DNA of 64,000 nucleotides from Myxococcaceae bacterium JPH2 (GTDB lineage: Bacteria; Myxococcota; Myxococcia; Myxococcales; Myxococcaceae): the NCBI GenBank assembly GCA_016458225.1, contig JAEMGR010000005.1:248001-312000 (forward strand), given 5' to 3'. Both the position numbers and the translations under genes were made by a program. The notes under the pieces were generated by a model. The model was not told the DNA's origin and did not search any database. It saw only the letters and a list, made by a program, of their open reading frames with translations. This document shows positions 45,029 to 54,359 of the stretch, piece after piece (the stretch's first letter is position 1; the number at the start of each line of letters is the position of its first letter).

Positions 45029-45832
45029 TCAGCGAGGGCGGACGGCGGCAGCAGCGGGCACGACGAGCGGCCCGGGAGCACCAGGGCGTTCGAGCACCTC
45101 GACCCGGACGCCGAAGGTCTCGGAGATGAGCGCGGGCTGGAGCACCTCCGCCGGCGTGCCCAGCGCGACGAGCCGCCCCCCAGCCAGGACCGCGAGCCGG
45201 TGCGCGTAACGCGCGGCGAGGTTCAAGTCATGGAGGATGGCCAGCACCGACCCACCCGACTGAGCGAAGCGCAGCGCTTCTTCCAACACGAGGTGCTGGT
45301 GCGCCAGGTCCAGGCTCGCCGTCGGCTCGTCGAGCAGCAGGTAGCACGGGCCTTGCGCGGGCGCGTCCCAGAGCTGGGCCAGCACGCGAGCCAACTGCAC
45401 GCGCTGGCGCTCTCCTCCCGACAGCGTGAGGTACGAGCGCTCCGCGAGGTGACGTGTGCCCGTCGCATCCAACGTCGCCAGCGCCACGCGCGTGTCGTCC
45501 TCGCCCGTGCCGCCGCCGAGGTGCGGACTGCGGCCGAGCAGCACCACCTCGCGCGCCAGGAAGCCGAAGCCCAGCGAGGCCTCTTGGGGCAGCACCGCCA
45601 GCCTTCGCGCGCGCTCGCGCGGGAGCCATGACGACAAGGGGCGGCCCTCCATCCGCACCTCGCCCATGGACGTCGCCTGCTCTCCAGCCAGCACCGACAG
45701 CAGCGTGGACTTGCCCGCGCCATTGGGGCCCACCACGGCGACGAGCTCGCCAGGATGTAGCTCCAGTGACATGTGGCGCAGGGTGACGCGGGCGCCTCGG
45801 CGGACCTCCACATCGCGAGCAACGAGGCTCAT
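45029..45832 (-). CDS. hmuV: Haem ABC transporter ATP-binding protein
   Basis: This is a 267-residue ATPase of the iron/haem/B12 class. It carries Walker A GPNGAGKST, Q-loop LPQEASLGFGF, signature LSGGERQRVQLAR, Walker B CYLLLDEPTASLD and the switch His (AILHDLNLA). ATG 45832 overlaps the permease stop (ATGA). Two copies would drive import of haem through the HmuU dimer in the inner membrane. It is the final gene of the operon. Confidence 0.93.
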   Translation of the reverse strand: MSLVARDVEVRRGARVTLRHMSLELHPGELVAVVGPNGAGKSTLLSVLAGEQATSMGEVRMEGRPLSSWLPRERARRLAVLPQEASLGFGFLAREVVLLGRSPHLGGGTGEDDTRVALATLDATGTRHLAERSYLTLSGGERQRVQLARVLAQLWDAPAQGPCYLLLDEPTASLDLAHQHLVLEEALRFAQSGGSVLAILHDLNLAARYAHRLAVLAGGRLVALGTPAEVLQPALISETFGVRVEVLERPGAPGPLVVPAAAAVRPR

Positions 45833-46917
45833 GCGCGACCTCCGCCCCGCGCGAGCAGCACGATGAAGGCCGGAGCGCCCAGCGCCGACGTCAGCGCGCC
45901 AATGGGCAGCTCCAGCGGCGCCACCACCGTGCGAGCCACCACGTCCGCCCCCACGAGCAGCGCGGCGCCCATCAAGGCCGAGGCTCCGAGCAGTCGCCGA
46001 TTGTCCGGCCCCAGCACGAGCCGCAAGAGCGACGGCACCACGAGCCCCACGAAGCCGATGGTGCCCGTGAACGCCACCGCCGCGCCCACGCCCAGCGCGG
46101 CCGCGAGGATGAGTCGGCGCTGAAGCCGCTCCACATCCACGCCCAGGTGACGTGCCTCGCGCTCGCCCAGCATCAGCAGGTTGAGGCGCGAGCCCTCGCT
46201 CAGGAGAAGGACGAGCGCGGCCCCGAGGGGAATCACCGCCACGCGCACCGCCTCCCACGACGCCCCGCCCAGACTGCCCAGGTTCCAGAAGGTGATGGAG
46301 CGAAGCTGCGCGTCCGTGGCCACGGAGATGAGCAACCCCACGCACGCGCTGGCGCCCGCGGAGATGGCCACGCCCGCGAGCAGCACACGCGGCCCCTCGG
46401 TGCGCCCACCCCGCAGGCCCAGGCGGTACGCGAGGACGGTGGCGATCAGCGCGCCCAGGAAGGCCGCCGCGGGGACCGACAACGCGCGCAGCGGCCCCAG
46501 GTGCGAGGCGAGGACCGCGTCCAGGAGGATGGCGGTCACCGCGCCCACCGACGCGCCCCCCGTCGTCCCCAGGAGCCCCGGGTCGACCAGCGGGTTGCGG
46601 AACAGCGCCTGGAGCGCGGCCCCGCTGAGCGCGAGGACCGCGCCCACCAACATCCCCAGCAGCGCGCGGGGCAGCCGGATGGAGAGCAGCACCGCCTCCT
46701 GCACCGGCTCCAAGCGGTGCGCCGTGTCCACGCCCAGCGCCGCCAACACCGAGCCCACCAGCGACGCGGGCGGCACGGGCACCGCCCCCACCGCGATGCC
46801 CAGGAGGAACACTCCGCCCAACAGCCCCCCGAGCACGGCCCACGAGAGGCCGGGCCCGAGGGAGCCTCGCGCGCGGTGCCCCCAGGACGGGGCCGGCGCC
46901 ACGTCCGGAACGCTCAT
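45829..46917 (-). CDS. hmuU: Haem ABC transporter permease (FecCD family)
   Basis: This is a 362-residue membrane protein of the BtuC/FecCD type with about nine to ten helices. Family signatures are IRLPRALLGMLVGAVLALSGAALQALFRNPLVDPGLLG, EREARHLGVDVERL (the coupling helix that contacts the ATPase) and FVGLVVPSLLRLVLGPDNRRLL. It overlaps hmuT and hmuV by four bases each. It forms the haem channel in the inner membrane. Confidence 0.93.
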   Translation of the reverse strand: MSVPDVAPAPSWGHRARGSLGPGLSWAVLGGLLGGVFLLGIAVGAVPVPPASLVGSVLAALGVDTAHRLEPVQEAVLLSIRLPRALLGMLVGAVLALSGAALQALFRNPLVDPGLLGTTGGASVGAVTAILLDAVLASHLGPLRALSVPAAAFLGALIATVLAYRLGLRGGRTEGPRVLLAGVAISAGASACVGLLISVATDAQLRSITFWNLGSLGGASWEAVRVAVIPLGAALVLLLSEGSRLNLLMLGEREARHLGVDVERLQRRLILAAALGVGAAVAFTGTIGFVGLVVPSLLRLVLGPDNRRLLGASALMGAALLVGADVVARTVVAPLELPIGALTSALGAPAFIVLLARGGGRA

Positions 46918-47780
46918 GGCGCGCGCCGCGCGGGAGCCGGGGCTTGCAGCCGCTCTCCCAACTGGTTCACCGCCGTGCCCAGGCGAGGCCCCAGCCCCAT
47001 GAAGTGAACATCCTCCACCGTCACCACGCGCCAGTCCTTCACGAGCGACAGGCCCGGCACTCGCGCCAGCCCCTCGACCCCTCCGGCGAGCGGCAGCGAA
47101 CCCTCGGGCAGCAGGATGAAGTCAGGCGCGGCCTCGACCACCGCCTCTTGTGTCAGCGGCCGAGTGCCCGTCCACGCGGCAACGGTGTTCACGCCGCCCG
47201 CCAGTTGGATGAGCTGATCCGCCGCCGTCCCACCACCCGCGACCATCCAGTTGCCAGCGCCGCGCGCATAGAGCGCCAACACGCGCGGACGCCGAGCCGC
47301 ACTCTTGCTCCGAGTCGCGGCCTGCTCCAGCTCACGGTTCATCGAGGTGACGAGCGCCTCGCCCTGCTCGACGCGACCCAGCAGTCGAGCCACCTCGCGG
47401 ATGCGCCGACGCGTCGCCTCCACGGTGGGCGTGTTGGGCACGATGACCACGTCCACGCCCGCTCCGCGCAACTGTTCCAGCACCGTGGGGGGACCGGCCT
47501 CCTCGGTGGCCACCACCCGAGTCGGACGCAGCGACAGCAGCCCCTCGGCCGACAGCGCGCGCTGATAGCCCACGCGCCGCGCGCCCGCCACCCCAGGCAC
47601 CGCCATGCTCATGTCATCCACACCCACGAGCCGCGCGCCTTGCCCCAACGCGATGACCGTCTCCGTGATGGCGGGACCCACCGACACCCAGCGAGGCTCG
47701 GCGGGCTCAGCGGCCAGCGCCACCGGAGCCATCGCGACGAGGCACAGCGCCAGCCAGCGCCCCACCGTCGCGCGGCTCAT
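46914..47780 (-). CDS. hmuT: Periplasmic haem-binding protein
   Basis: This is a 288-residue class III (helical-backbone) substrate-binding protein with signal peptide WLALCLVAMAPVALA. Early motifs WVSVGPAITETVIALGQGARLVGVDD and later AVVEAAPDFILLPEG match the haem/siderophore group; the haem-ligand Tyr usual in HmuT may be the Tyr in RVGYQRALS. ATG 47780 overlaps the hmuS stop (ATGA), and it ends in the hmuU start. It delivers haem to HmuUV. Confidence 0.9.
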   Translation of the reverse strand: MSRATVGRWLALCLVAMAPVALAAEPAEPRWVSVGPAITETVIALGQGARLVGVDDMSMAVPGVAGARRVGYQRALSAEGLLSLRPTRVVATEEAGPPTVLEQLRGAGVDVVIVPNTPTVEATRRRIREVARLLGRVEQGEALVTSMNRELEQAATRSKSAARRPRVLALYARGAGNWMVAGGGTAADQLIQLAGGVNTVAAWTGTRPLTQEAVVEAAPDFILLPEGSLPLAGGVEGLARVPGLSLVKDWRVVTVEDVHFMGLGPRLGTAVNQLGERLQAPAPARRAP

Positions 47781-48865
47781 GACACACCTCCCGCGACGGG
47801 CTGCGTCCGCGCCAACTCCTCCGCGAGCGCGCGCCACGATGCATCCTCGGGGATGCCCGGCTTTCGCGCGCCGAAGAGCAGCGCGATGTTCTCGCCGTCG
47901 GCGTCGAACAACTCCACGGACGTCACCACGCCGTCGCGCGTGGGCTTGCGCACCACCCAGGCGCTGTGGATGTGGTCCGCGCGCACGTGCAGGTTGAAGC
48001 CCGGGTCCATGACGTTCATCCACGGCCCGAGCGGCCGCACCGTGTTCACCGGCCCCGTGTGAATCTGGATGGCGCCCGGGTTGCCCACGAACACCATGAT
48101 GGACTGCCCCGACGCCGCGGCCCGCGTCAGCGTCCAGCCGAGCGCCTCCGTGCTCACGGGCTGCGCCAGCTCAGGCCCCGCCAGCCGCAGTGCCTGCACT
48201 CGGCCCGCCTTGAAACGCTGGAGCATGCCGAAGAACTCGTGCGTGTCCTGGAGCGCTCGCCACGCGGCGCGCATCCCCTCCGCGTCCACCTCCGCGTCGG
48301 GCCGAGGCGCGGGAGCCACCTTCCGAGGCTCCACGGGCGGCAGCGTGTAGCCCGAGCCCGCGGCCAGCTCCGCCACGAGCGACTCGAAGGCGCCCACGTC
48401 GCTGCCCTCCTGGAGGTGCACCTTGTGCACGGCCGTCCCGGCGGCGTCGAAGAACTGGAGGCTCCGCTTCACCGTGCCCGCGGCGCTCTCCCGCACCGCG
48501 AAGGCGAAGCGCCAGTGGGACAGGAACAGGCGCAGGTCGATGTCCGGGTCCAACACCAGCGCGCGCGCGCCGCTCAGCTCCACGTTGCGGTAGACGCCGC
48601 GCTTCTCATGCACGGCGTGCTCATTGCGCGTGAGCGCCATGACGGGCCCCAGCGACTCGAGGCGCGGCAGAATCACATCCAGGCGCGGCTGGAGGACGAT
48701 GACGTCCTCGCCGATGCCGGTGGCGATGAGCTCGGCCTCGCTGACGCCCAGGTGCTCGGCGGCGTCGCGCACGCGCACGCGGGGCTGCTCGTCTCGCAGC
48801 GCGCGCCAGCGCAGACGCAACTGGACAGGGTCTCGGTGCTCTCCCGAAAGGGAAACGGACTGCAT
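47777..48865 (-). CDS. hmuS: Haem-degrading/haem-handling factor (HmuS/HemS family)
   Basis: This is a 362-residue cytoplasmic protein with two HemS/ChuX-type halves (about 20-165 and 190-355), the usual length for HmuS. The first half has VMALTRNEHAVHEKRGVYRNVEL, whose His may be an axial haem ligand. The second has QSIMVFVGNPGAIQIHTGPVNTVRPLGPWMNVMDPGFNLHVRADHI. ATG 48865 has GAGGTGA upstream. It takes haem after import, to store it or release iron. It is coupled to hmuT. Confidence 0.92.
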   Translation of the reverse strand: MQSVSLSGEHRDPVQLRLRWRALRDEQPRVRVRDAAEHLGVSEAELIATGIGEDVIVLQPRLDVILPRLESLGPVMALTRNEHAVHEKRGVYRNVELSGARALVLDPDIDLRLFLSHWRFAFAVRESAAGTVKRSLQFFDAAGTAVHKVHLQEGSDVGAFESLVAELAAGSGYTLPPVEPRKVAPAPRPDAEVDAEGMRAAWRALQDTHEFFGMLQRFKAGRVQALRLAGPELAQPVSTEALGWTLTRAAASGQSIMVFVGNPGAIQIHTGPVNTVRPLGPWMNVMDPGFNLHVRADHIHSAWVVRKPTRDGVVTSVELFDADGENIALLFGARKPGIPEDASWRALAEELARTQPVAGGVS

Positions 48866-48891
48866 GGTGTCACCTCGTCGAAAAGAGGGAA

Positions 48892-50454
48892 TCAGAAGTG
48901 GGTCGCGCCGGGACCGGTCCACGCATACTCGAGCGTGAACGCGCCGGACGCGTAGGTGAGGAAGCGCAGCTTCGCGAAGCCGCCATCGATGGTGCGCACC
49001 ACGAACACCTGGGACTTGGGCGTCACCACGTGCGTGTTCACGTCGTAGTCGTACCAGGCGCCCAGCACGGCGTTGCCCGAGGCCTCGCCACTGCCCGGCG
49101 GGCCCGCCACGGGCCTCATCGCGTCCTGCACATAGGGACCCGTCGGAGCCTCGGTCACTTCGCCCAGCGAGGTGAACTCGGTGACGACCGCGCCCGCGGT
49201 GCCCGTGCCGCTCGTCCCGCTGTTGGTTCGCACCCACGTGCGGCTGAAGGAGATGTCCCAGTTCGAGCCGGGCGCATCCGCCGCCAGCGCGGCCACCGTC
49301 CCGAGCCCGAAGCGAACACCCACCACCTTCTGCGCATCCGAGGCGTCCACCGTGAGCTTCGTCACCCCCACGTCGACAGGCACCGCCGCGAGCTGCACGG
49401 TGTAGCGGCCCGCGGCATACGCGGTGATGCGCAGCCGCGCGTAGCCACCCGACGCCGTGCGCACGAGGAACACACGCGCCTTGGGCGACACCACGTGCGT
49501 GTTCACGTCGTAGTCGTACCAATCGCCCAGCACCGCGTTGCCCGGAGCCGTGTCACCCGTGGGCCCCGGCGACGTCAGCACCACGTCCTGCGCGTAGCCC
49601 ACGCTGGGCGCACGCTGCACCGCCGCGACATCCGTCGAGTCCGCCACGCGCGCGCCACCCAACCCCGGGCCGCTGGCGCCACCATTGGTGCGCCACTGCG
49701 TGCGCCGCACCGCGATGTCCCAGTCGCGCGAGGTAGAGGAATCCGCCACCTGCACCACGCCGCGCCCCACCTGGAGATAGACCCACGCATCGGACGCGGA
49801 GGCATCGACCTGCAGCTCGCCGTTGCCCGGGGCCTGCACCTTGCCCCAGCGAAGCTGGAGCATGGCCGGCGTGCCCGCGGCGTCGTAGTACGTGAGCATC
49901 CGCACCTTGAACCAGGTGCCCTCATCCGAGCGCACGACGTACACGCGGTCGCGCGGGGACAGCTTGTGCGTCACCGCGTCGTAGCTGTACCAGGCATCGC
50001 CCACCTCGAAGGCGGTGTCCGGGTCGGTCCCCACGTCATCGCCGTCCGCGGCATCCGTGGCGTAGCCCGCCGTGGGCGCCTGAGACAGTTGCGCGAAGTC
50101 CGCGCCCGAGAGCGTGGCCACCTCCACCCCACCCTTCCCGTTCACGCCACCGCGCGCGCGGATGTGGAAGCGCTGGAAGGCCAGGTCCCACTTCGCGTCC
50201 TGCGTCGCATCCACCTGCCGGCCCGTGTCCAGGTCCAACGCCACCCAGACGTCCTTGCTCGTCGCATCGACGGTGGTGGTGAACGTGCCGTCGCCGTTGT
50301 TGGCGTGGTGCATGTTCGCGTCACCGCCGTCTTCGGTGGGCGTCTCGGGAGGGTCTCCCGGCTTGGGCTGAAGGTCGTCGTTGCAACCCGCGAGCAGACA
50401 CAGCGGAAGGACAAGTCGGCGCAGCAAGGCGAGACCGGAGGACGGTCGGTACAT
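48892..50454 (-). CDS. Lipoprotein with three tandem HmuY haem-binding domains
   Basis: This is a 520-residue lipoprotein (LLAGC, Cys24), with AGGAG before ATG 50454. Three HmuY-like beta domains follow (about 60-205, 214-357 and 365-515). Each has a W-D-hydrophobic strand (KWDLAFQRF, DWDIAVRRT, NWDISFSRT), then WYxYDxxTHxxSP, then a VxxVR and KLR/RLR strand. HmuY of Porphyromonas is a single-domain haem-capturing lipoprotein; three in one chain is unusual. The His in YDVNTH is kept in all three and could be a ligand, though the known HmuY ligands lie elsewhere. It is likely displayed outside to pass haem to the receptor encoded just upstream. Confidence 0.88.
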   Translation of the reverse strand: MYRPSSGLALLRRLVLPLCLLAGCNDDLQPKPGDPPETPTEDGGDANMHHANNGDGTFTTTVDATSKDVWVALDLDTGRQVDATQDAKWDLAFQRFHIRARGGVNGKGGVEVATLSGADFAQLSQAPTAGYATDAADGDDVGTDPDTAFEVGDAWYSYDAVTHKLSPRDRVYVVRSDEGTWFKVRMLTYYDAAGTPAMLQLRWGKVQAPGNGELQVDASASDAWVYLQVGRGVVQVADSSTSRDWDIAVRRTQWRTNGGASGPGLGGARVADSTDVAAVQRAPSVGYAQDVVLTSPGPTGDTAPGNAVLGDWYDYDVNTHVVSPKARVFLVRTASGGYARLRITAYAAGRYTVQLAAVPVDVGVTKLTVDASDAQKVVGVRFGLGTVAALAADAPGSNWDISFSRTWVRTNSGTSGTGTAGAVVTEFTSLGEVTEAPTGPYVQDAMRPVAGPPGSGEASGNAVLGAWYDYDVNTHVVTPKSQVFVVRTIDGGFAKLRFLTYASGAFTLEYAWTGPGATHF

Positions 50455-50481: not shown

Positions 50482-52410
50482 TCAGTGGCGGATGACGAGT
50501 CCGGCGCGGAACGAGCGCGGCGCGAGCGGCAGGTCGTTGGGGTTGCCCGCGCCCGTGAGGTTGGTGCCCTCGACGAAAACCTGGAGTCCCGCGGGGAGCT
50601 GGCGCGCCACGCGGGCATCCAGCGTCACGTAGGGAGAGGCCTCGTACGGGTCCGCGACGCCGTCTCCATCCGAGTCCGGAGCAAAGGGCCGCGCGCCAAT
50701 CCAGGCGCCGCGCACCCACGTCTCCAGGCCCCAAGGACGGGAGCGCCACGTGGCCTGCGCGGTGACGCGGTGGCGCGCCTGTCCCTCCAGCGGCAACCCC
50801 GAGTCCTGGTCCTGCCCATCGGTGAGCGAGTAGGTGGCCTCCAACAAGAGGCCCCCGGGCAGGCGCTGCCGCGCGCCCAGCTCGCCGCCGCGCACCTTCG
50901 AGCGCGCCACGTTGACGTAGACGAAGTGCTGTCCCTCCGCGTCTTGCTGGAGCGACACGCCGATGCGGTCGCGCAGCGCATGCTGATAGACGCTGACCCA
51001 CAGGAGTGAAGCGGGAGTCGGCCGCACCTCCACGCCCAGGCTCGCGCTGCGCGAGCGCTCGGGCCGCAGGTCCGGATTGCCGTTCACCGTGTATCCGACG
51101 GTGGGGTTCTCGAAGTCGAGCAGCAGCTCCTGGAAGCTGGGCGCGCGCAATCCCCAGCCGTAGCTGGCACGCACCGTGAGCCACTCCAGCGGATCCACGC
51201 GCACCGCGAGCCGAGGCGTGACCGCCGCGCCGAACTGCGTGTCCGCGTCCAGTCGAGCCCCGGGAACTAGAACCAAGCGCGGCGCCGACGCCACCGACCA
51301 ACTGTCCTGCACGTACAGCGCGCCCCGGCCCCGCTCACCGCGCCCACCTTCCAGCCGGTCCGACGCGAGCCGCTCGCCGAGCAACTCCAGGCCCGCCACC
51401 AGCGCATGGGACTCTCCCAGTCGCGCGTCGAGCTGCGTGCCCAGTCGCCCCTGCTGCTCGCGCGTGTCCTCCACGCTGTCCAGCGCGGAGGCCTGTCGCT
51501 GATCTCTCAGCGCGCGCCGCGCGAACCACGCCACGTGCCCTTCGGTGCGGAGCGTGGTGGACTCGCCCAGTCGCCACGAGGGCGCCACGCGCGCGTTGAG
51601 TTCCTCGTCGCGGCTCGCCCGGTCGAAGACCGCGCCGGCCGTGCCCAGGTCCACCCCGCGCTGGATGCGACGCGAGATGGACACCGTGCTCGCCAGGTCC
51701 ATGGCGCCCTGTCCGCGCAGGTCTCCGCGCGCCGAGAGCTGGAAGCCCTCCACGCTGCTGCCCGTCGTGCCCACGTCGCTGGGGTCCAGGTCATACGCGT
51801 TCCGGCGCTGCACGCCGCCGCTCACGCGCAGGCCCCACGTCTCGCCGCGCGCCTCGCCCGTGCCGTCCAACTCCAGACGCTGGAGGCTGCCGTACGACAG
51901 GCGCAGGTCCCCACCGAGCGGGCGCTGCGCGCGACGGGTGATGAGGTTCACCACGCCCGCGACGGCGTCACTCCCATAGAGCGCCGACGACGGCCCCTTG
52001 ACGATCTCCACCTGCTCGATGTCCTCGAGCGACAGCCGCGACAAGTCCACGCTGCCCGCGACGCGGCCGGTGACGCGCTCGCCGTCCACCAGCACGAGCG
52101 CGTACTCGGGGCCCAGGCCCTGGATGCGCAGCGATGCGCCGGAGAAGGTGTTGTCCACCTCCAGCCCTGGATGGGCGGCGAGCAGCGACGCGACATCGCG
52201 CTTCCCGCTCGCCTCGATGTCGCTCCGGGTGATGACCTCCGTGGCCACGGGCGCGTCGACCAGCCGCTCCGGGCTGCGCGACGCGGTGATGACGGTGCGC
52301 GCGACGGGCACGTCCTCCACGCCCGCATCGGGGCTCGAGGGCAGCTCCTCGCCCATCACCAGGCCGGGCACCGCCCAGGCCACGACGAACACCACCCCAC
52401 GCCAGGACAT
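50482..52410 (-). CDS. TonB-dependent haem receptor
   Basis: This is a 642-residue outer-membrane receptor with a signal peptide ending near VMGEE. A TonB-box-like TVITASR lies near residue 40, and the plug domain (about 40-160) has GLGPEYALVLVDGERVTG and IVKGPSSALYGSDAVAGVVNLITRR. A 22-strand-type barrel follows, with the FRAP-like WGLRAPSFQELLLDFENP and NPDLRPERSRS motifs of HmuR/BtuB-type haem receptors. One predicted outer loop contains DSDGDGVADPYEA, a Ca-binding TSP3-like motif. GGAGG lies about 7 bases before ATG 52410. No TonB/ExbBD gene is nearby. Confidence 0.92.
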   Translation of the reverse strand: MSWRGVVFVVAWAVPGLVMGEELPSSPDAGVEDVPVARTVITASRSPERLVDAPVATEVITRSDIEASGKRDVASLLAAHPGLEVDNTFSGASLRIQGLGPEYALVLVDGERVTGRVAGSVDLSRLSLEDIEQVEIVKGPSSALYGSDAVAGVVNLITRRAQRPLGGDLRLSYGSLQRLELDGTGEARGETWGLRVSGGVQRRNAYDLDPSDVGTTGSSVEGFQLSARGDLRGQGAMDLASTVSISRRIQRGVDLGTAGAVFDRASRDEELNARVAPSWRLGESTTLRTEGHVAWFARRALRDQRQASALDSVEDTREQQGRLGTQLDARLGESHALVAGLELLGERLASDRLEGGRGERGRGALYVQDSWSVASAPRLVLVPGARLDADTQFGAAVTPRLAVRVDPLEWLTVRASYGWGLRAPSFQELLLDFENPTVGYTVNGNPDLRPERSRSASLGVEVRPTPASLLWVSVYQHALRDRIGVSLQQDAEGQHFVYVNVARSKVRGGELGARQRLPGGLLLEATYSLTDGQDQDSGLPLEGQARHRVTAQATWRSRPWGLETWVRGAWIGARPFAPDSDGDGVADPYEASPYVTLDARVARQLPAGLQVFVEGTNLTGAGNPNDLPLAPRSFRAGLVIRH

Positions 52411-52515
52411 GCCGCGTCCTCCGGCTCACGGCCGGCTGGCCCTCCTCAGGGGAGGACCCATTGGGCGCTGGGCTCTCGGGCCTCGGGCCTCAGTCAATCC
52501 AACTCACGTCGTGCG

Positions 52516-52677
52516 CTATCCCCGAGCCGAGGGCACCGGGGACGGCGACGACTCCAACGGAACCACCTGGGTCCGATGACAGCGACGGCACTTCAGCTCC
52601 ACGCCACCGGGGACCAGCCGGGCCAGCAGGCTGCCGCACATGCACCGCAGCTCCCCTTCCGCGCACCCATCCTTCAT
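52516..52677 (-). CDS. Com-like zinc-ribbon small protein, first gene of the haem operon
   Basis: This is a 53-residue protein, too small for most gene finders. It reads MKDGCAEGELRCMCGSLLAR, then LVPGGVELKCRRCHRTQVV, giving C-x1-C and C-x2-C knuckles within the Mu-phage Com-like zinc-finger pattern (C-G-x-L-L-A-R ... E-x-K-C-x-R-C). GGGAG lies 7 bases before ATG 52677. It begins 22 bases after the predicted start of the Fur-controlled promoter and ends 105 bp before the receptor gene, so it is the leader cistron. Phage Com activates translation by binding mRNA; a similar role here is speculation. Confidence 0.75.
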   Translation of the reverse strand: MKDGCAEGELRCMCGSLLARLVPGGVELKCRRCHRTQVVPLESSPSPVPSARG

Positions 52678-52705
52678 GCACCGCTCCCGGCTCGAAACGC
52701 CAAAC

Positions 52706-52734
52706 ACGATATTGATACTCATTATCAATGTCAA
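52706..52734 (-). promoter_or_regulatory. Fur-controlled promoter of the haem operon
   Basis: On the minus strand TTGACA (52734-52729), 17 bases, TATCGT (52711-52706) form a sound sigma70-type promoter. The start point would be about 52699, giving a 22-base leader before the Com-like ATG. The Fur box fills the spacer, so Fur binding must block polymerase. Confidence 0.8.
52711..52729. promoter_or_regulatory. Fur box
   Basis: ATTGATACTCATTATCAAT is a perfect inverted repeat with 7-base arms around five bases and matches the classic Fur consensus closely. It is strikingly AT-rich against the surrounding GC-rich DNA. Confidence 0.92.
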
Positions 52735-52818
52735 ATGACCCACCGGACGATGCGGACACACGGAGAGCGGACGCGTGAGGGCGTCACGTCCCGCGCAAGT
52801 CCGGCCTCGGGTGAGGGG

Positions 52819-53460
52819 TCAGTGAAGCTTGGGGCGGGCACCGGCCTCGCGGGACGCGCGGGGCTTGCGCGTGACCATGCGGGCGATGCCGAAGTAGAGC
52901 TGTTCTTCGGTGTACACCTTGCGCACCCGGCGGCTGCGCGCGCCTGGGTGGTAGGCGGGACCGGGGCGCTCCAACCACTGGAAGATGCGCACCTCGCCGG
53001 TGTGCGCCAGCTCGGACAGCAGCTCCACGGGGCACAGCTTCAGGTAGCGACGGACGAGCGGGCGCAGCTTGCGCGAGAACTCGGCGCCGAGCACCGCGTG
53101 GCGGCGGCCCGCGTGCAGCGTGCCGTCGAAGCGGCGCGACATGTGGAACAGCTCGTGGATGACCGTCTCCACGCGCGCCTGGGCCGTGGAGCCTCGGAAG
53201 AAGAGGGGCCGCAGCGTGATGCAGTACAGCATCCGCCGGCCACGGATGCGCACCACGGGCTTGCGGCGTCCGGCGCGGTCCGCGGCCCGGCCGCCTCGGA
53301 AGCACAGGGGCTTCACGGTGCCACGCGACGCTCGCCTCGCTTCTCCGGCCACCACGAGAATGCGGCTGGCCTTCACGTGGCTGAACTCCGGCATGCGCGC
53401 CGCGATGTCGCGGATGAGGGCGCGGACCGTCTTGTTGAAGTTGGGGCGGCGGGGGGCCAC
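52819..53460 (-). CDS. Putative zinc metallopeptidase-like protein
   Basis: This is a soluble protein of about 213 residues. The motif VETVIHELFHMSRRFDG (HExxH) marks a zincin-type site, followed at about 20 residues by RRHAVLGAEF, which could give a third ligand. The protein is very Arg-rich. The start is uncertain: GTG 53460 is preferred, while TTG 53517 would add 19 residues lacking features. No export signal was found. The substrate is unknown. It is divergent from the LEA lipoprotein gene. Confidence 0.6.
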   Translation of the reverse strand: MAPRRPNFNKTVRALIRDIAARMPEFSHVKASRILVVAGEARRASRGTVKPLCFRGGRAADRAGRRKPVVRIRGRRMLYCITLRPLFFRGSTAQARVETVIHELFHMSRRFDGTLHAGRRHAVLGAEFSRKLRPLVRRYLKLCPVELLSELAHTGEVRIFQWLERPGPAYHPGARSRRVRKVYTEEQLYFGIARMVTRKPRASREAGARPKLH

Positions 53461-53516
53461 GAGTGGTGGACAGTCTAGCGGAAAAACCCTTGGGGTCAGC
53501 CTTGGCGATACCCACA

Positions 53517-54359
53517 ATGTCCACCGTGATGCGCTCGACCTGCCAGATGGCTCTCATGGCGGTGCTCCTCGCGGGGGTCGCCGGGTGTGCCTCGGCGCCC
53601 GTGCGGCCCGCCGGTCCCTCCGTCTTGACCGACCCGAGCACCTCCGTGGTGGCCCAGGGCCTCACGGAGACCACCCTGCGCTTCAACGGGCGGCTCACGA
53701 GCCCCGGCGCCGCCGTCCTGGACCGGGCCGAGTACGAGTTCGTGTCCGACGGGCAGGTGGTGAAGGCGGGCACCCAGTCACTGGGGCTCGCGCTGGCCCC
53801 GGGCACCCCCACGGAACTCGCGTTCCAGGAGGTGGCGCCCTACGCCCGCTCCGCCGAGGAGCTGGCGCGACTGGGCGACACGGGGGGCACGGTGCTCGTG
53901 GCCCTGCGGGGCACCTTGGTGGTGCGCGCGGGCGCGACCGAAGAGCGCCTCCCCTTCGCCGCGAGCCGCACGGTGCGCGTGCCCCGCCCGCCCGTGGTCG
54001 TGCTGGAGGGACTGGAGGGCGCGCGGTACTCCGCCGAGGAGGTGCAGCTCAACCTCCGGCTGGGCGTGCGCAACCCCAACCCGTTCCCCCTGCGCCTGGA
54101 GCGCCTGACGTACCAGGTGGGCATCGCGGGGAAGCTGCTGGAGGAGGGCACCGCCACGCAGGCGGACACCGTCGCGCCAGCGTCCACGGGCGTCTATCCG
54201 GTGGAGATCTCCGTGACGCGCGCCACCTGGGGCCCCGAGGTGCGAGCGCTCATCTCCAAGGGAGCGCTGCCCTGGACGGTGAAGGGCGAGCTGACGGGCC
54301 CCACGCTCAAGGTGCCGTACACGCTCGGCGGGGACGTGAAGCTCAACGTGTCCCGGTAG
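53517..54359 (+). CDS. LEA type-2 (WHy-domain) lipoprotein
   Basis: This is a 280-residue lipoprotein with a signal ending LAGVAGCAS (ATG 53517 or 53529; no clear ribosome site decides). Two WHy-like units are visible: VAQGLTETTLRFNGRLTSPGAAVLDRAEYEF and LNLRLGVRNPNPFPLRLERLTYQVGIAGKLL. LEA-2 domains are small beta-sandwiches found in stress and envelope proteins. It ends one base before aat. A shorter paralogue is encoded at 59951-60454. Confidence 0.78.
   Translation: MSTVMRSTCQMALMAVLLAGVAGCASAPVRPAGPSVLTDPSTSVVAQGLTETTLRFNGRLTSPGAAVLDRAEYEFVSDGQVVKAGTQSLGLALAPGTPTELAFQEVAPYARSAEELARLGDTGGTVLVALRGTLVVRAGATEERLPFAASRTVRVPRPPVVVLEGLEGARYSAEEVQLNLRLGVRNPNPFPLRLERLTYQVGIAGKLLEEGTATQADTVAPASTGVYPVEISVTRATWGPEVRALISKGALPWTVKGELTGPTLKVPYTLGGDVKLNVSR

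Follow-up and report, generated by a model that had tools for sequence, protein, structure and literature searches.

The haem-uptake operon in the 64,000-nucleotide stretch of DNA analysed here (the window), which comes from a Myxococcaceae-like genome of 8.99 Mb, does not begin with its receptor gene. A gene of only 53 codons stands between the promoter and the receptor, and the locus raises the question of what so small a first cistron might do. A sequence-only reading had proposed that its product is Com-like and that it controls the receptor post-transcriptionally. This proposal is partly supported, with strong comparative evidence on its side, and the main new result is a hairpin element in the receptor leader; Com was previously known as the translational activator of mom in phage Mu. 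We consider it probable that a chromosomal, host-owned relative of Com acts on this leader hairpin and thereby controls translation or termination of iron-uptake outer-membrane genes.

The small gene heads a predicted Fur-regulated haem operon

The promoter and the genes behind it are placed as follows.

52706..52734, minus strand: sigma70-type promoter TTGACA-N17-TATCGT, read directly
52708..52726, minus strand: Fur box GATAATGAGTATCAATATC in the promoter spacer, 16/19 against the classical consensus
52516..52677, minus strand: gene (including stop codon) for a 53-residue Com-like Cys4 zinc-ribbon protein (conservation, dN/dS, Com profile match)
52417..52422, minus strand: receptor Shine-Dalgarno GGAGGA
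50482..52410, minus strand: TonB-dependent haem receptor (HmuR-like), presumed target cistron (PF00593, PF07715)
48892..50454, minus strand: HmuY-like haemophore with three HmuY stretches (PF14064, E = 9.5e-54)
47777..48922, minus strand: HemS/HmuS haem-degrading protein, start provisional (PF05171)
46914..48023, minus strand: periplasmic haem-binding protein (HmuT-like), start provisional (PF01497)
45829..46917, minus strand: FecCD permease (HmuU-like; PF01032)
45029..45832, minus strand: ABC ATPase (HmuV-like), start estimated by eye (PF00005 in a 604-aa frame, 45029-46843)

The operon thus runs in the order small gene, receptor, HmuY, HemS/HmuS and HmuTUV, all on the minus strand, and the receptor also matches TIGR01785 and TIGR01779 below cut-off. 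The frame of the small gene (MKDGC...SARG*) opens with ATG and extends from 52677 to 52516 on the minus strand. It is the first cistron of a haem receptor operon with predicted Fur regulation, a position that it shares with HemP/HmuP genes. Upstream of the promoter, the gene at 52819-53517 (minus strand) has a weak match, below cut-off, to the phage metallopeptidase family PF18894. Several Myxococcus and Corallococcus relatives apparently have a single HmuY domain where the window has three in one chain.

The Fur box had been claimed to lie within the spacer of the TTGACA-N17-TATCGT promoter, and this is borne out. Scored against the classical 19-bp Fur consensus, shuffles of the same region average 8.9/19 and reach at most 11, against 16/19 for the box itself. 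The best Fur site lies 48-56 nt ahead of the start codon and scores 13-16/19 in all 44 homologous loci scored, a set in which some genomes are counted twice, from two collections; the weakest sites (13/19) equal or barely pass their own shuffle maxima of 11-13.

Strong matches to the small gene (E <= 5e-11) were found in 46 of 96 Myxococcaceae genomes, and the median dN/dS over its 33-codon core is 0.078 (31 distinct sequences; 460 pairs with dS of 0.05-3), indicating purifying selection. These two results together show that the frame is not due to chance, and the tiny, Cys-rich first cistron described by the sequence-only reading is therefore a real gene. Its conservation between Fur box and receptor, proposed there as a check, holds among relatives: 43 of the 46 gene-positive family genomes carry a receptor homologue behind it in the same orientation (30 checked on the loci themselves and 13 by comparing the positions of gene and receptor matches). 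Of the three exceptions, G009 and G043 (loci L076 and L077) have different genes beside it, and G015 holds a remnant.

A scan of named genomes gave 24 receptor loci, of which 18 were judged myxobacterial, among them a record titled Comamonas sp. KCTC 72670 (L033), a title that is probably wrong. The small gene lies upstream in all 14 myxobacterial loci with a receptor identity of at least 62 % (best segment) and in none of the four at 37-41 %, and it is absent from all six non-myxobacterial receptor loci of the scan. Both the gene and the leader element described below are present in a strain of Myxococcus xanthus (L034).

The small protein resembles phage Com

We compared the family profile with a profile of six phage Com-like proteins taken from records, using hhalign. 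The two match with a probability of 96.2 and E = 2.2e-9 over 40 columns, VRC-x-CGSLLARL...VELKCRRC in the family aligning with VRCxxCNRLLARA...IEIKCPRC in Com. When the comparison was rerun, the score of 48.6 stood well apart from those of 100 shuffles in which the Cys columns of the Com alignment were kept and its non-Cys core columns shuffled (mean 13.6, sd 3.2, maximum 22.5). The paired Cys knuckles that had been likened to those of Com thus match at the profile level, but the first pair departs from Com: the ligands read C-x-C ... C-x2-C in 23 of 23 rows of family model A2, and the first pair is C-x2-C in the six phage rows. All four Cys are invariant in the family alignment, and most family rows have an extra Cys nearer the N-terminus.

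The search against the filed Com family PF10122 that had been suggested as a check came out negative. Searching the window's own genome gave no match, but the positive control was silent too, and hmmscan was used instead; no member scanned reached the cut-off of 22.9 bits, PF10122 was listed at E <= 10 for none of 27 Myxococcaceae members, and one of four distant members scanned scored 13.4 bits (E = 0.055). The sequence-only reading had named the joint absence of a Com-family match and of conservation in relatives as grounds for giving up its proposal; PF10122 indeed gave no match, but the small frame is conserved. On these comparisons, the small protein appears to be distantly related to Com, its first knuckle being C-x-C, and we do not assign it to PF10122.

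Other sources were searched for relatives of the small protein. PF10636 (HemP/HmuP) was found in none of the 96 family genomes, its control being positive in Escherichia coli, and was not listed at E <= 10 for the window's protein. Neither NCBIfam nor PHROGs yielded a meaningful match, a search of viral contigs brought up no relative, all plasmid matches had E >= 2, and a PDB sequence search and a fold search with the predicted model returned nothing significant. The AlphaFold model has three strands, at modest confidence (mean pLDDT 67). A plant zinc ribbon, PF23547, was matched by 10 of 27 members, below cut-off (E = 0.007), and was taken as general ribbon likeness.

The receptor leader holds a conserved hairpin element

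Three structures are predicted between the small gene and the receptor.

52461..52493 (core 52464-52489, about 26 nt), minus strand: conserved element GGC-CCGA-GGC-CCGAGA-GCC-CAGC-GCC, proposed site of the small protein
52438..52458, minus strand: hairpin HP1 of the receptor leader (fold; covarying pair on 10 relatives)
52421..52435, minus strand: hairpin HP2, the 3' arm of which includes the first two G of the receptor Shine-Dalgarno (fold)

The leader from small gene to receptor measures 87-144 nt in most loci (longer in L029) and consists of a nearly invariant block followed by two hairpins. A coding function for the block was considered and rejected, as single-base indels break the frame. 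In ten Myxococcus-type leaders, one pair of HP1 occurs as four standard types (AU 5, CG 2, UA 2, UG 1). On three of five measures (paired cells, two-sided cell changes and covariation score) HP1 outdoes every one of 500 shuffles; on the other two, 10 shuffles reach its count of further pair types and 109 its count of pairs with changes on both sides. RNAalifold on full leaders missed HP1 and HP2 because MAFFT misaligned them, and these values come from a smaller, consistent set that leans towards the drawn structure. R1, a covariance model of the leader, found 35 strong leaders (E <= 2.5e-9) among 64 sources, 10 of them its training set, and gave no equally strong match in loci of these sources that lack the small gene. 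Rfam gave no match at E <= 1 in the window (52300-52800) and none at E <= 0.5 in L066, L067, L076 and L095.

With rare departures, the element core follows the consensus GGC-C[AC]G[AC]-GGX-C-N2-4-G[AC]-X'CC-C[AC]G[ACT]-GCC, which is to say an outer helix GGC/GCC, a 4x4 internal loop, an inner helix GGX/X'CC and a terminal loop that is mostly C-N2-3-G-A. Among 29 diverse sites, the inner pair X/X' is CG in 15, UA in 11 and AU in one, and is unpaired in two (A-G in L119 and L120). This pair shows 12 two-sided changes where every slid control shows none, and its covariation score was reached by 0 of 500 shuffles. The numbers of pairs changed on both sides (440/500) and of further pair types (500/500) were no better than in shuffles, because only one pair of the element varies. 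Five of the six pairs are invariant across the 29 sites; one site outside that set, in G193, reads GAC/GTC, a compensatory change at a second pair. The case for an RNA structure therefore rests on one covarying pair and one distant site.

The loop bears directly on Com. According to a SELEX study (PMC6483171), Com selects hairpins with the loop CC(N)2-3GAG, an invariable C-G closing pair and a stem of 3-4 pairs, often bipartite, and the GA dinucleotide is described there as decisive. The leader of the gene after the small gene thus holds a candidate Com-type site with a matching loop: 24 of the 29 elements carry C..GA on a standard pair, 14 of the 29 are closed by C-G, and the window's own loop is GGC-CCGAGA-GCC, closed by C-G. 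The study was consulted only after the element had been found, and the agreement was not built into the search.

Gene and element co-occur across the Myxococcota

A profile search of 195 Myxococcota genomes placed the small gene in 59 at E <= 2.5e-8; six further genomes, at E values from 3e-4 to 0.008, were counted as gene-negative. Outside the Myxococcaceae the neighbours of the gene change yet remain iron-related. The gene directly follows a FUR-family gene in L069, L077 and L095, an arrangement that suggests a co-regulated pair; it follows FeoA/FeoB in L094 and a DtxR-FeoA protein and FeoB in L096, and in L066 it stands ahead of a receptor, an HmuY-like protein and HemS. An upstream Fur-like site exceeds its shuffle maximum in 7 of 15 distant loci (L068 and L070-L075) and is no better than chance in the other eight. 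In L066 the best Fur-box score upstream of the small gene is 9/19, at chance level, and an inverted repeat, GAAGTTGA-N9-TCAACTTC, can be seen there by eye.

In 10 of the 15 distant loci the element lies directly behind the small gene (L066, L067, L068, L070, L073, L075, L076, L077, L094 and L095). It was not found behind the gene in L069, L071, L072 and L074, and L096 has only a relaxed form. The gene after the element varies in distant loci, being the receptor, an OprB porin or a beta-barrel-like protein of unknown family. In L076, L094 and L095 the element shares its 3' strand with a strong hairpin, of which that strand forms the 5' foot; a T-rich run comes after this hairpin, as in an intrinsic terminator, and folding prefers the terminator by 9.5-16 kcal/mol to a structure in which the element is forced.

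A pattern search of 145 genomes of the order gave a match in 54 of the 56 genomes with the small gene and in 7 of the 89 without it; five of the seven gene-negative matches were inspected, and all of them lie in coding-like sequence. As a control, the reversed pattern matched 29 genomes, 13 gene-positive and 16 gene-negative. Some pattern-found sites stand away from the small gene (L119, L120, L121, L123 and a second site in L122). In L119 and L120 the element precedes a putative outer-membrane gene, with two FeoA genes following in L120; it lies ahead of a homologous gene in L123 and of a putative outer-membrane gene in L121, and the second element of L122 precedes, as judged by eye, a putative outer-membrane gene and a FeoA-like gene. 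A Fur-like site lies at most 50 nt upstream in L119 (13/19), L120 (13/19) and L123 (12/19), where shuffle maxima are 13, 12 and 11, respectively; none is present upstream of the elements in L121 and L122. G110 is without the small gene, and there the leader of the L119-gene homologue shows no element; in G115 this homologue is cut by the contig end. The L119 putative outer-membrane protein has no Pfam match. Putative outer-membrane proteins of unknown family stand behind the element and near Feo genes at L094 4572-5537, L119 1573-2352 and the second gene of L122, and some proteins of this type share the repeated motif QDNSFLxEEAYNQE.

We built a covariance model of the element, R2, on 29 sites and ran it with Infernal's stricter filters. 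Strong matches (E <= 4e-4) occurred in 56 of the 59 Myxococcota genomes with the small gene and in none of the 136 counted as gene-negative (Fisher p about 1e-45, ignoring the relatedness of genomes, which are not independent); 26 of the 56 element-positive genomes supplied a training site. Ten gene-negative genomes searched again with laxer filters gave a best E of 0.024. The gene-positive exceptions are G015, in which the gene is decayed, G193, with a weak match (E = 0.18) 15 nt 3' of the small gene, and G113, in which we found no convincing element and no copy of the outer-membrane target that its sister genomes have. Ten weaker R2 sites (E 0.005-0.09) were inspected by eye and none stands ahead of a recognisable iron gene; most are in or at the end of coding frames, and those in L178, L181 and L184 are intergenic. 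We consider it very probable that gene and element work together.

Possible modes of action

We propose that, under iron limitation, Fur would leave the promoter and the first cistron would then yield the small Com-like zinc-ribbon protein, which would bind the conserved hairpin in the leader of the next gene and raise its expression. The target in the window would be the haem receptor. In some relatives the targets would be other putative outer-membrane genes, including those for an OprB-type porin and beta-barrel-like proteins and a gene before two feoA genes, and some of the hairpin-bearing outer-membrane genes would be reached from a distance, as they stand away from the small gene.

Action at the RNA level is the likely mode. 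Zinc ribbons often bind DNA, and the small protein might instead be a DNA-binding regulator with the element as its operator, so that control would be transcriptional; the Fur-like sites no more than 50 nt from the element in L119, L120 and L123 fit such an arrangement. We regard it as unlikely, since at the sites read the element is sense-oriented, behind a promoter or an upstream gene and ahead of the start codon that follows, the two strands of its internal loop are not palindromic, its inner pair covaries, three distant copies overlap intrinsic terminators and the loop fits the RNA motif selected by Com.

The element might also be a self-standing cis-regulatory RNA, such as a ligand switch, with the protein serving separately as a metal sensor or Fur partner. 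The layout of element and terminator in L076, L094 and L095 does resemble the expression platform of a riboswitch, and the gene adjoins a Fur-family gene in L069, L077 and L095. An independent switch is nonetheless improbable given that no strong element was found in any of 136 gene-negative genomes, that about 26 nt is small for an aptamer and that the loop fits the Com motif.

If the protein does bind the hairpin, the step that it controls may differ between lineages. As the element overlaps the terminator foot in three distant lineages (L076, L094 and L095), binding there would act by antitermination: a protein holding the element would part the terminator from its U-tract. Leaders of the Myxococcaceae have two further hairpins ahead of the receptor Shine-Dalgarno, which makes translational control more likely there; no terminator-type T-run was seen in the leaders read, and HP2 abuts the Shine-Dalgarno. 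Release of the Shine-Dalgarno by the element was considered and is not supported by folding, its mean unpaired probability over 34 leaders being 0.26 when folded freely, 0.23 with the element forced and 0.35 with shuffled flanks. Since folding gave no sign that the element frees the Shine-Dalgarno, we infer the translational step by analogy with Com.

The sign of the effect leans towards activation. The protein could instead repress, keeping the leader closed until another signal releases it: SELEX and SHAPE on a homologue give binding and not its sign, and forcing the element left the Shine-Dalgarno unfreed. Repression seems to us a minor possibility, because PMC6483171 describes Com as an activator of mom and because binding would presumably disfavour the terminators that overlap the element.

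Absence of the gene and element from some receptor loci

In twelve family loci a receptor of 52-70 % identity occurs without the small gene, and nine of these loci have a Fur-like site of 13-15/19 just upstream. Five g7/g8 sister genomes retain the receptor and Fur box and lack both gene and element, indicating that the control is dispensable and not obligatory. In four of the gene-less loci, L098-L101, the eye can follow the 5' leader as far as GCCGGGA, and sequence resembling the late hairpins comes directly after it, the stretch with gene and element being missing; R1 matches these leaders partially in L101 (E = 7e-4), L098 (0.13) and L100 (1.0) and not at all in L099. The system can thus be absent while the operon stays. 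Decay can be observed in G015 (L109, 4600-4840), where the small gene has lost its ATG, with an in-frame GTG left, an otherwise invariant Arg is replaced and the Fur box is lost; no receptor was found in this genome at E <= 1e-100.

The earlier suggestion of post-transcriptional receptor control by a Com-like leader gene thus gains from the profile match, the co-occurring leader hairpin and the SELEX-type loop, but such control is not obligatory, as the five sister genomes indicate. That sister genomes manage without the small gene could also mean that the frame encodes just a leader peptide or is a passenger that regulates nothing, which is very improbable in view of the strong purifying selection on its amino acids and of homologues in several families that share the Cys4 core and stand next to differing iron genes, and is already contradicted by the phylum profile search, the R2 co-occurrence and the dN/dS.

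Relation to known systems and significance

The pair of gene and element resembles Com-mom of phage Mu (PF10122, Zn_ribbon_Com) in several respects. Both proteins are small Cys4 ribbons with a variable tail and match at the profile level, each is encoded a short way ahead of the gene that has the site, or candidate site, in its leader, and the candidate site is a short hairpin with a C-N2-3-GA loop, closed by C-G in the window. In contrast to Com, the first knuckle of the family is C-x-C, most rows carry an extra Cys on the N-terminal side, and the members scanned fall short of the PF10122 cut-off. It also differs in being chromosomal, in its Fur-box promoter, in its proposed targets, which are iron-uptake outer-membrane genes, and in a site that lies about 50 nt from the start codon with hairpins between or overlaps a terminator.

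Like HemP/HmuP/ChuP (PF10636), the gene is a small first cistron of a Fur-regulated haem operon. In PMC9131926, ChuP and Ensifer HmuP are described as positive post-transcriptional regulators of the receptor, and HemP/HmuP members in two other species are transcriptional activators. Unlike these, our family is a Cys4 ribbon with a different RNA element, and PF10636 is matched nowhere in the 96 family genomes.

A third comparison is with LicT and SacY, which are RNA-binding antiterminators. As in systems of that kind, L076, L094 and L095 have an RNA hairpin that overlaps an intrinsic terminator at its foot; unlike them, the protein is a ribbon of 53-73 residues without regulatory domains. Among the open-licence PMC papers listed, none reports a Com-like regulator of iron genes encoded on a chromosome, a weak kind of absence.

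These results suggest that, in these predatory soil bacteria, a chromosomal relative of a phage switch tunes iron uptake once transcription is under way. More speculatively, a Com-like class with a shared hairpin code might serve iron-uptake outer-membrane genes across the Myxococcota, in cis and in trans and by translation or antitermination, and its C-x-C and extra N-terminal Cys might make it metal-responsive, with gating by iron or zinc beyond that of Fur; we give this wider scheme a low probability. A cellular counterpart of Com with its own RNA site would mark the minimal pair of ribbon and hairpin as a reusable gene switch. If so, it would be a second, non-homologous answer to the problem met by HemP/HmuP, and a compact RNA-protein module with targets predictable from sequence.
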